A stretch of 64,000 nt of DNA, taken from positions 1 through 64,000 of the forward strand of contig NZ_JTLI01000044.1 in the NCBI RefSeq assembly GCF_000799075.1, given 5' to 3'. This stretch comes from Cetobacterium sp. ZOR0034 (GTDB lineage Bacteria; Fusobacteriota; Fusobacteriia; Fusobacteriales; Fusobacteriaceae). The first letter of the stretch is position 1. Each line of letters starts with the position of its first letter. A program made the position numbers and the translations under genes. Shown in pieces: positions 29,985 through 33,805 of the stretch. The notes beneath the pieces were generated by a model. That model did no database searches. It saw only the letters and a list, made by a program, of their open reading frames with translations, and was not told the DNA's origin.

Positions 29985-31376
29985 TTAAAGATATAAATCT
30001 CTCTCTCCATTTTTTATTTTTTCTAATTTTTCTACTGTCAGTTTTTTTATATCCTCTCTAACAATTGTTTGAATCTCTCTTTCTATAACCTCTTCAACTT
30101 TTTCTGTCAGTTCTTTATCGCCATAGTCCATTGCATACTCCATTAAAGTTAAAAGTGCATTTGGTGAACATACATTCTGAATATTTCCACTTTTAGCAAG
30201 TTGCATAAATCTATCTCCAGTTCTTCCCATTCTATAGCAAGCTGTACAATAACTCGGAACACAATCTTGATCTAATAGTTCTTTTAAAACCTCTAAAGGG
30301 GTTCTGTGATCAGCTAATTCAAACTGAGTTCTAGTTTTTCCTTCTTCTCTATCTGTGTATCCTCCAACATCAGCTGATGATCCTGCACTTATTTGTGATA
30401 TTCCATATTTTATAAGCTCTCTTCTAAGCTCTGCAGTTTCTCTAGTTGATAAAATCATTCCTGTAAAAGGGACTGCCAATCTTATAATAGCAACTATATT
30501 TCTAAAAGTATCGTCATCTATTTGATGTGGATATTCTTCTAAACTCATTCCCTCTGCTTTCTTTATTCTCGGAACCGAAATCGTGTGGAATCCTACCCCA
30601 TACTCTTTTTCCAAATACTCATTATGTAACATAAGTGCTATTATTTCATATCTATAATCCGCCAATCCAAATAACACACCAGCACCTACATCATCAATAC
30701 CAGCTTTCATGGCTCGAGAAAAAGCATTTAAATGATATTCATAATCACCTTTTAAAGATTTCGGATGAACTCTTTCATATGTTGGCTTATGATAAGTTTC
30801 TTGGAAAAGAATATATGTACCTATCTCTGCATCTTTTAATTTTTTATAATTTTCTACAGTTGTTGCAGCTATATTAACATTTATTCTTCTAATAGATCCA
30901 TTTTCAAATTTTGTACTGTAAACAGCATCAATAGCCTCTAAGGTATATTCAATTGGGACATTTACAGGATCTTCACCTAGCTCTAATGCAAGTCTTTTAT
31001 GACCCATCTTTTCTAAAAGCCTAACCTCATTTTGAATTTGTTCTCTTGAAAGCTTTTTTCTTTCAAACTTATTATCTCTTTTATAACCACAATAAGTGCA
31101 GTTGTTTACACAATAATCACTCACATATAACGGTGCAAAAACAACTATTCTATTTCCATATATAGACTTTTTTAACTCACCTGCAATTTCATAAAGTCTT
31201 TTTTTCTGCTTCTCATCTTTTATTTCTAAAAGTGAAGCAACCTCACTGTGAGTTAATCCCTCTTTATTTTTTGCTTTATTTAGAACTCTTTCAATCTCTT
31301 CATAACTAGTATTTTTAGAATTTTTCAATAGGTTTTCAATATAATTTTGATCAATAAAATTTATTTCCTTTTCCAT
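29985..31376 (-). CDS. hydG: [FeFe] hydrogenase maturase HydG (tyrosine lyase)
   Basis: 463-aa radical SAM enzyme that cleaves tyrosine to make the CO and CN ligands of the H-cluster. The radical SAM CX3CX2C motif is CVNNCTYCGYKRDN near residue 90, and the C-terminal auxiliary cluster motif is YCTACYRMGRTGDRFM near 385. Both match HydG rather than ThiH, which lacks the second cluster. The start overlaps the end of hydE by 16 bp, with AGAGGAG inside hydE. Confidence 0.97.
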   Translation of the reverse strand: MEKEINFIDQNYIENLLKNSKNTSYEEIERVLNKAKNKEGLTHSEVASLLEIKDEKQKKRLYEIAGELKKSIYGNRIVVFAPLYVSDYCVNNCTYCGYKRDNKFERKKLSREQIQNEVRLLEKMGHKRLALELGEDPVNVPIEYTLEAIDAVYSTKFENGSIRRINVNIAATTVENYKKLKDAEIGTYILFQETYHKPTYERVHPKSLKGDYEYHLNAFSRAMKAGIDDVGAGVLFGLADYRYEIIALMLHNEYLEKEYGVGFHTISVPRIKKAEGMSLEEYPHQIDDDTFRNIVAIIRLAVPFTGMILSTRETAELRRELIKYGISQISAGSSADVGGYTDREEGKTRTQFELADHRTPLEVLKELLDQDCVPSYCTACYRMGRTGDRFMQLAKSGNIQNVCSPNALLTLMEYAMDYGDKELTEKVEEVIEREIQTIVREDIKKLTVEKLEKIKNGERDLYL

Positions 31377-32407
31377 CTGATATTATCTCCTCTTGTTAGT
31401 ATTGGTTCAAATCCTGCTTCTATAACTCCACTTTCTATTTTTAGCTTTTCCTCTGCTGATTCCTTTCCAGAAAAAACTTTTCCATTATAAAGAGCATATT
31501 TTTTTCTATATTCCATAGGAGACAAGTTTGGCATTATAACATTTGCACCAGCCTTGAATCCTTTTTCTCTTCCTTTTGGATCAATTGTTCCTAAAGCTGT
31601 TGTTGCCGGCAATAATACATCTGGCAGTAATAATCTTATTATTGCTAACAGTGTAATTGTATCATATGCAGTTCCACCTTTTTCAGATTTTAAAGGTGTG
31701 TCTTCGTGTGGTATAAAAGGTCCAATTCCTACCATGTGAGGTTTTAACTTCTTTAAGAAAATTAAATCTTTAGCATAATCCTTCATTTGCAAACCAGGCA
31801 AACCTATCAAAAATCCACTTCCTACTTGATAGCCAATCTCTTTAAGGGCCTCTAAGCATTTCTTCCTATTTTCCAAAGACATTTTTGGATGTAACCTATT
31901 ATAAAGATTTTCATCCACAGTCTCGTGTCTTAAAAGATATCTATCAGCACCAGCTTCATAAAGTCTTCTAAATGATTTCTCACCTCTCTCTCCTAAAGAA
32001 AGAGTAATAGCTATATCAGAGTATTCTCTTTTTAAAGTTTTTATTATATCCTCTAAAAGCTCATCTGTAAAATAACTATCCTCTCCTCCTTGGAAAACAA
32101 AGGTTCTGTATCCTAACGAATATCCTCTGTGACAAGAATCCAATATCTCATCTTTAGATAATCTATATCTACTAGCCTTGCAGTTAGATGCCCTAATTCC
32201 ACAGTAAAAACAATCACATTTACAGATATTAGATATCTCTATCAATCCTCTAAAAAAAACTGTTTTACCATAACTTCTCTGTCTAACTTCATAGGCTTTA
32301 TCTATTAGATAATCTCTATCCTCTTCACTTAAATTGCAGAGTAACTCCTCTAACTCAAATTGAGTTAATTCATTATTTTCATACAATTTATCTATTAAAT
32401 ACCTCAT
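31361..32407 (-). CDS. hydE: [FeFe] hydrogenase maturase HydE
   Basis: 348-aa radical SAM protein that works on the HydG-made iron-cysteine complex towards the dithiomethylamine-bridged 2Fe cluster. CX3CX2C is ISNICKCDCFYCGIRASN near residue 62; FQGGEDSYFTDELL near 105 and GFLIGLPGLQMKDY near 198 are typical of HydE/BioB-like TIM barrels. GGAGGTGGGAG precedes the ATG. It is the first gene of the maturation operon; a TATAAT about 40 bp upstream may be its -10 box, but the -35 is weak. Confidence 0.96.
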   Translation of the reverse strand: MRYLIDKLYENNELTQFELEELLCNLSEEDRDYLIDKAYEVRQRSYGKTVFFRGLIEISNICKCDCFYCGIRASNCKASRYRLSKDEILDSCHRGYSLGYRTFVFQGGEDSYFTDELLEDIIKTLKREYSDIAITLSLGERGEKSFRRLYEAGADRYLLRHETVDENLYNRLHPKMSLENRKKCLEALKEIGYQVGSGFLIGLPGLQMKDYAKDLIFLKKLKPHMVGIGPFIPHEDTPLKSEKGGTAYDTITLLAIIRLLLPDVLLPATTALGTIDPKGREKGFKAGANVIMPNLSPMEYRKKYALYNGKVFSGKESAEEKLKIESGVIEAGFEPILTRGDNIRWKRK

Positions 32408-32481: not shown

Positions 32482-33462
32482 TTATAGTAATGGAATATCC
32501 TTTGCTTTACACTCTTCTAAAACTTCCTCTGGCCATAAAGATGCTTGAACTTCACCTATATGAAGTTTATCTAAGAAGAATAAACATATTCTAGATTGTC
32601 CTATTCCTCCACCTATTGTATATGGCAATTCTCCTGCTAAAAGTCTTTTATGGAAATCTAAAGTTTTTCTATCTTCCGCTCCCGCAATCTCTAACTGTTT
32701 GGCTAAAGATTCCTCTGATACACGAATTCCCATCGAAGAAAGTTCTAATCCTATTTTTAACGGTTCATAATATACAGTTATATCTCCATTTAAATCCCAA
32801 TCATCGTAATCTGGGGCTCTTCCATCATGCTTCTCTCCTGAAGCTAAAGCCTTTCCGATTTGGCTTATAAATATTGCACCATGTTTCTCTGCATGTTTAT
32901 GCTCTCTTTCCTTTGGAGTCAGTTCAGGATAAAGTGTTTCTAACTCTTGAGAAGTTACAAACGAAATCTCCTCTGGTAATTTTTTTGATAACTGTGGATA
33001 ACTTTCTCTTATATGTTCCTCAGTATCTTTTAGCGAAGTGTATATCTTTTTTACAGTTTCATGTAATTTATCTGTTGTTCTTTCTGATTTATCTAAAACC
33101 TTTTCCCAATCCCATTGATCTACATAATATGAATGTATTGGGCTCAAGTCCTCATCTCTTCTTATAGCGTTCATATCTGTATAAAGCCCTTTACCTGTAT
33201 GGAATCCATATTTATGAAGTGCCATTCTTTTCCATTTTGCTAACGAATGAACAATTACGGCATCCTGTTTACATTTCGTATCAAATGCAACGGCTCTTTC
33301 AATTCCATTTAAATCATCGTTTAATCCACTTTCTGGTGTTACAAACAGTGGTGCTGAAACTCTTGTTAAATCCAATTTTTTAGCTAAATCTCTTTCGAAA
33401 AAGTCTTTTACCTTCTTAATTGCTACCTCTGTTTCCATAATATCTAGTTTTGCCTTATACAT
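32482..33462 (-). CDS. asnA: Aspartate--ammonia ligase (asparagine synthetase A)
   Basis: About 326 aa. Makes L-asparagine from aspartate, ammonia and ATP in the cytosol; it has the class II aminoacyl-tRNA synthetase fold. Recognisable segments are [22 protein letters not shown] near residue 35, [12 protein letters not shown] near 110, [10 protein letters not shown] near 215 and [17 protein letters not shown] near 295. An ATG five codons upstream is part of the GGAGG and is rejected; the ATG at 33462 gives the normal family length. It is preceded by a strong terminator and an Asn-rich leader peptide, indicating control by asparagine supply. Confidence 0.97.
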
Positions 33463-33483
33463 AATTCCTACCTCCATATTTTT

Positions 33484-33538
33484 TTATAAAATAAAAAAGC
33501 TCTCAACATCTCCATCAATGGAAATAGTTAAGAGCTTT
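33484..33538 (-). terminator. Attenuator terminator in the asnA leader
   Basis: On the minus strand AAAGCTCTTAAC and its downstream TATTTCCAT pair with ATGGAGAT and GTTGAGAGCTTT, giving a stem of about 20 bp with one bulge and two G-U pairs, followed by TTTTTTATTTT. It ends about 22 nt before the asnA start, so readthrough is required to express asnA. The 9-nt sequence ATTTCCATT of its left arm (forward 33517-33525) also occurs inside the leader peptide gene (33628-33636), offering a competing pairing partner. Confidence 0.85.
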
Positions 33539-33586
33539 AATTTAACAAAATATAATATACCTATTTTTAGATATACTTATACCAAA

Positions 33587-33736
33587 TTATTTACAGTCAA
33601 ATTTAAATTCTTTATTATTTTCAAAGTAATGGAAATTACACAATACAAATTTCAATAGATTATTATTATTGTTGTTATTATTATTATTCATATTATTAAC
33701 ACAATTATAATTATTATTATTGAAATTTATAAACAT
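33587..33736 (-). CDS. Asparagine-rich leader peptide upstream of asnA
   Basis: A 49-codon reading frame with a perfect ribosome site (AAAAAGGAGG, 5 bp before ATG). Of its 49 residues 21 are asparagine: single or clustered Asn in the first 15 codons, then Met, then ten Asn in a row (codons 17-26; AAT except two AAC), and three more later. It ends with TAA at 33587, about 50 nt before the terminator stem. The arrangement promoter, leader peptide rich in the end product, terminator, biosynthetic gene is the classic layout of transcription attenuation. I infer that ribosome stalling at Asn codons when charged tRNA-Asn is scarce favours readthrough into asnA. It is too short and too repetitive for ordinary gene callers. 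Confidence 0.82.
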   Translation of the reverse strand: MFINFNNNNYNCVNNMNNNNNNNNNNLLKFVLCNFHYFENNKEFKFDCK

Positions 33737-33776
33737 AACTTCCTCCTTTTTAAAAATTTATTTTTACTATGGGGTA

Positions 33777-33805
33777 ATAATAAAACTTTTTTGTATAAAT
33801 GTCAA
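33777..33805 (-). promoter_or_regulatory. Promoter of the asnA leader
   Basis: Minus-strand TTGACA (33800-33805), 17 bp, TATTAT (33777-33782). Expected start is near 33770, giving a 5' UTR of about 34 nt before the leader-peptide ATG and about 300 nt before asnA. It starts right after the stop codon of the HAD phosphatase gene. Confidence 0.85.

Follow-up and report, generated by a model that had tools for sequence, protein, structure and literature searches.

Leader-peptide attenuation senses His, Trp, Phe, Thr, Leu, Ile, Val and Cys, and the his, thr, phe, leu and trp attenuators belong to Proteobacteria; we know of none that senses asparagine. The Proteobacterial systems have been treated as a class, Bacilli have His leaders upstream of hisZ and hisS* (PMC2965389), and leader peptides are also known in Actinobacteria (PMC1262725). 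Neither of these papers mentions an asparagine leader, and the searchable open-access literature, outside which most subscription papers lie, yielded neither an asparagine leader peptide or attenuator nor a study of leader peptides in Fusobacteria.

The region described here lies upstream of asnA in a stretch of 64,000 nucleotides from Cetobacterium sp. ZOR0034 (the window), whose nearest relatives by genome comparison are Cetobacterium, at 84–94% protein identity. Its organization resembles that of the Proteobacterial attenuators in having a promoter, a short ORF rich in codons for the end product, predicted mutually exclusive hairpins, and an intrinsic terminator before the structural gene, but the residue sensed would be asparagine, the first regulated gene is asnA, and the phylum is Fusobacteriota. 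With the leaders of Bacilli (PMC2965389) and Actinobacteria (PMC1262725) it would share leader-peptide attenuation, which sometimes replaces T-boxes for one gene between lineages, although the amino acids and phyla are different. The T-box of Firmicutes asnA (RF00230) is likewise placed before asnA and senses uncharged tRNA, but does so through direct binding of the tRNA by an RNA structure, without a leader peptide. We infer that the Fusobacteriota leaders represent the classical leader-peptide attenuator in an asparagine-specific form, which is retained by part of the phylum and is undescribed in the literature searched.

The asnA upstream region of Cetobacterium sp. ZOR0034

The asnA gene, encoding an ammonia-dependent asparagine synthetase (PF03590, E 7.3e-106, above the curated cut-off), occupies positions 32482–33462 of the minus strand, on which all of the features of its upstream region also lie. 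Its probable start is the ATG at 33462, preceded by a GGAGG Shine-Dalgarno (SD) sequence at 33475–33471; an alternative ATG at 33477 overlaps this GGAGG. Two radical-SAM genes (HydE-like and HydG/ThiH-like by eye) follow on the same strand about 75 nt after asnA, at 29985–32407.

An earlier note on this DNA had proposed that a consensus promoter, an asparagine-rich leader frame and a terminator precede asnA, and these elements can each be recognized. The promoter is of the sigma-70 type, TTGACA-17-TATTAT at 33805–33777, and matches the consensus at 11 of 12 positions; it is the top scorer among the 15 hits of the promoter scan, although shuffled sequences yield an equal number of hits, and Cetobacterium relatives have a similar pair of hexamers at the same distance. 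Between this promoter and the structural gene sits a short ORF with a ribosome site and predicted translation, at 33736–33587, encoding the 49-residue peptide MFINFNNNNYNCVNNMNNNNNNNNNNLLKFVLCNFHYFENNKEFKFDCK; its GGAGG (33746–33742) is kept in Cetobacterium relatives. The asparagine content of the frame is as had been claimed, in that 21 of its 49 codons specify Asn, the product of the downstream gene, with ten of them consecutive (codons 17–26, 33688–33659), and these ten form the predicted stall region. Elsewhere in the window, SD-preceded ORFs with residue runs are limited to two short plus-strand frames with Leu runs. We also note that the Cetobacterium codons flanking the Asn run, ATAAATTTCAATA and TATTGAAATTTGT (approximately 33718–33731 and 33643–33656 in the window), are complementary and in folds form a hairpin with the Asn codons in its loop; it may serve as a pause hairpin or a protector.

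The terminator is a stem-loop at 33538–33498, with its left arm at 33538–33519 and its right arm at approximately 33515–33498, followed by a tract of six U residues at 33498–33493. It is evident by eye and in folds, though not listed by a simple consensus terminator scan, and in Cetobacterium it shows compensatory changes, with 99% of cells paired. The terminator (33538–33493) is thus present as proposed, but because the likely start of asnA is the ATG at 33462 its U-tract ends about 30 nt before the gene rather than the 22 nt or so first given. A smaller hairpin at 33577–33554 is seen in folds within the loop of the predicted antiterminator.

Control of asnA by some other regulator, with the leader ORF incidental, is a further reading to be weighed. 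T-boxes precede seven of the 14 asnA loci included in an Rfam scan (few of them from Fusobacteriota, most from other phyla), all seven lying outside Fusobacteriota, and the earlier statement that Gram-positive asnA is under T-box control often holds in the sampled Firmicutes loci; E. coli asnA, moreover, adjoins asnC, so that either a T-box-like RNA or an AsnC-type repressor could be imagined. Within the 64-kb window, however, there is no match to RF00230 or to any other Rfam family at the gathering threshold, with the same tool that finds T-boxes before asnA in other phyla. Neither asnC nor another regulator gene adjoins asnA in the window, where the neighbours, named by eye from their translations, are a HAD-type phosphatase upstream and the radical-SAM genes downstream. 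We regard control of this kind as very improbable.

Distribution and conservation of asparagine leaders

The asnA gene is present in 78 of 98 Fusobacteriota genomes, and the upstream regions of all of these were read. Of these 78 genomes, 33 carry an Asn-run leader with an SD sequence upstream of asnA, at a total of 35 loci; they comprise ten of genus g1 (Cetobacterium), G002 and G049, six of g4, seven of g5, six of g14, G053 and G097; one g1 genome (G005) could not be judged, its contig ending 249 nt upstream of asnA. Two of the seven g5 genomes, G034 (L138, L129) and G031 (L141, L144), have duplicated asnA, with a separate Asn leader and terminator before each copy. More than half of the asnA-bearing Fusobacteriota genomes, including all of the Leptotrichiaceae, have no Asn leader before asnA, and none was found before non-Fusobacteriota asnA (among 80 loci from genome contigs) or before asnS at 30 Fusobacteriota loci.

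The leaders fall into two forms of which the Asn run is the common feature: a long one of the Cetobacterium type, with 30–49 residues and several Asn stretches, and a short one, mostly of 20–25 residues, such as MKIFSIKYTAQFNNNNNMSRFGLK. The short form of the Fusobacteriaceae resembles the his leader in its arrangement of a residue run, a few codons and a stop, with a his-like ending of the form ...NNNNNMSRFGL*. Depending on the lineage, the run comprises 3 to 12 Asn codons, and the leader of G097, a member of another family in the class, is MKTVVTSIANNNNL, with only four Asn codons.

Comparison of the asnA upstream regions shows that the Asn frame and the terminator are kept together, the opposite of a pattern in which the frame is lost and the terminator persists. 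The two are jointly retained in Cetobacterium, in a second genus of Cetobacterium type, in further genera of the Fusobacteriaceae and in another family of the class, in leaders that differ greatly in length and sequence. This joint conservation across lineages supports the asparagine leader-peptide attenuation proposed in the earlier note.

Leader occurrence tracks the clades of asnA in a protein tree. Genus g4 is split by asnA type, one type having the leader and the other lacking it; the members without an Asn leader are G024–G029 (L117, L124, L125, L128, L131 and L133), whose asnA belongs to a different clade, and judging from these sequences replacement of asnA and loss of leader control seem to be linked. 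Two loci depart from the usual layout. In G056 (L145) an Asn leader, MFKLITIFNNNNNT, lies close to asnA and the switch region and terminator are absent, an apparent natural deletion or an assembly error. At G018:C8:119000-121300 (L224) the leader and terminator are intact, but the terminator is separated from asnA by several hundred additional bases, some of them masked, which may represent the insertion of a mobile element.

Could the Asn codons simply be an (AAT)n microsatellite, or a chance product of AT-rich sequence in a long 5′ UTR followed by a constitutive terminator? Such an origin would suit an AT-rich genome like this one, in which AAT is the predominant codon of the runs, but the runs are read as Asn from an SD-preceded ATG and are broken by synonymous AAC codons. 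The run codons of 34 leaders comprise 252 AAT and 35 AAC with the reading frame kept, a mixture that fits selection on the encoded residue. When the 350 nt upstream of asnA were dinucleotide-shuffled 5000 times, SD-preceded ORFs had Asn runs of no more than 3, as against the ten observed, and across the phylum runs of at least 4 occur at 31 of 80 loci and in none of 7900 shuffles. No residue other than Asn has a run of at least 4 in SD-preceded ORFs upstream of these 80 asnA loci, and several asnA clades have the Asn runs within unrelated flanking sequence. We consider an origin by microsatellite or chance to be of negligible probability, the least likely of the alternatives.

We also scanned all 98 Fusobacteriota genomes with the pattern GGAG-ATG-Asn5, and asnA leaders make up the majority of the matches; the long run of the window leader itself falls slightly beyond the spacing of the pattern. 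The other matches include several protein starts in Ile or Gln frames and one start of an Asn-rich protein (G052), and the clear exception to asnA specificity is genus g25, discussed below.

Predicted mutually exclusive pairings in the two leader forms

Two strands of the Cetobacterium leader are candidates for an antiterminator. The first is the segment AATTTCCATTAC (codons 34–37, 33637–33626), which can pair with the terminator in its loop and right arm; in both Cetobacterium and G002 it comes out as the right arm's best partner, from the same place in the leader. The earlier note had observed that a terminator left-arm sequence is repeated within the leader, and ATTTCCATT is indeed present both there (33636–33628) and in the left arm. 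The pairing of the leader with the right arm has a Fisher combined p of 4e-5 over 8 lineages, with L140, L148 and G049 individually unsupported, and in G002 both strands have changed yet are complementary, with 13–14 pairs and one bulge in a duplex fold. The second strand is formed by the last leader codons (ENNKEFKFD, 33622–33596), which fold energies predict to be the 5′ strand of an antiterminator against the terminator left arm. When terminator pairs are penalised, Cetobacterium leaders form one long nested helix in which the last codons are paired to the left arm and the segment to the right arm. The right-arm pairing suggested at the outset is supported in most Cetobacterium-type lineages and survives sequence replacement in G002, but it is probably just the end portion of a longer antiterminator in which the left arm is taken up as well. 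We think it fairly probable, from these folds, that the exact antiterminator is this single nested helix; left-arm antiterminator energies are close to those of shuffled AU-rich sequence and at best weakly better (z from -1.9 to +0.6).

Folding with a ribosome in place, as the earlier note had recommended, gives mutually exclusive pairings that are clear in the short form. In Cetobacterium the terminator state is still better than the antiterminator by about 3–10 kcal/mol at equilibrium when a stalled ribosome is included; the Cetobacterium switch must therefore be kinetic.

The short form can be described from an alignment of 13 g4 and g5 leaders, in which the Asn run is followed by segments A (the end of the ORF, GGATTTGGACTT), B (GGTACAAATCC), C (GATTTGTACCCGA), D (within the terminator's left arm and loop, TCGGGTAC) and E (the right arm). 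A:B, C:D and D:E are paired in 95, 93 and 98% of cells respectively, and in no more than 55% after sliding by 1 to 3 columns. The terminator, D:E, is conserved with strong compensatory changes, 13 cells having changed on both sides, a number reached in none of 500 shuffles; for C:D a single pair has changed on both sides, a level not above that of a letter shuffle. In several folded sequences (for example L014, L113, L138 and L129), a ribosome at the first Asn codon leads to formation of A:B and C:D before E is made, L119 being an exception in which B:C is retained; moving the ribosome to the stop codon allows B:C to form and leaves D largely unpaired. Because the position of the ribosome sets which hairpins form in the folds, stalling would correspond to antitermination and completion of the leader to termination. 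This differs from the Proteobacterial attenuators in that the switching segment comes after the codon run, so that a stall at the first Asn codons would free rather than mask it; the Cetobacterium form would differ in that its predicted antiterminator is a single long helix using leader codons directly.

We propose that asnA is, with high probability, controlled through ribosome-mediated attenuation of transcription, with charged tRNA-Asn as the signal. In the window, transcription would begin at the promoter and a ribosome would start on the leader. With ample asparagine the ribosome would pass the Asn codons and reach the leader end, covering its 3′ part; the terminator hairpin would then form, and transcription would end before asnA. 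With scarce charged tRNA-Asn the ribosome would stall within the Asn run, codons 34–47 would stay free, and these would pair first with the left arm of the terminator and then with the right arm, such that no terminator forms and asnA is transcribed. Translation of the leader, stalling that depends on asparagine, and this direction of regulation are predicted from the arrangement of the sequences. AsnRS exceeds its family cut-off in 91 of the 98 genomes, G000 among them, and free asparagine would therefore charge tRNA-Asn directly and set its charging level.

The same architecture might instead report a general slowdown of translation, or arrest by the poly-Asn nascent peptide, rather than the charging of tRNA-Asn: long homopolymeric runs alone could slow ribosomes, and a simple sensor would need far fewer Asn codons than the Cetobacterium leader holds. 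Asn is, however, the product of the downstream gene, and a run length that changes by lineage, with so few Asn codons in G097, also speaks against this reading, which we judge unlikely, though less remote than the other alternatives.

A second asparagine leader and its possible meaning for nitrogen control

The exception in genus g25, of the Leptotrichiaceae, is a leader in G090, MTIYKINKFDNNNNNNNYTRLGVF, which with hairpins and a terminator precedes amtB (G090:C1:614500-617500, L222, leader at approximately 360–434); the ORF downstream of amtB is glnK (PII)-like as read from its sequence. In folds of this leader, placing the ribosome at the first Asn codon leaves the left arm of the terminator sequestered, and placing it at the stop codon releases that arm. 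No Asn leader was found before amtB outside genus g25. In G088 (G088:C46:19800-22800, L223, minus strand) the leader and terminator are retained without amtB, together with a short tail like the end of glnK, and from its sequence we take this locus to be a decayed copy of the amtB locus.

Asn-leader attenuators have perhaps formed more than once in Fusobacteriota. We lean slightly towards the view that these bacteria use the charging of tRNA-Asn as a nitrogen signal, with such attenuators controlling asnA and, in one genus of Leptotrichiaceae, the amtB-glnK genes of ammonium uptake. If the proposed control of asnA is correct, asparagine would join the short list of residues sensed by leader-peptide attenuation, and this type of control would reach a phylum without a described case in the literature searched. 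A T-box and a leader peptide would then serve one job, the control of asnA, in different phyla, and the natural series of leaders, with 3 to 12 consecutive Asn codons, two RNA architectures and one apparent natural deletion, would provide material on the evolution of attenuators.
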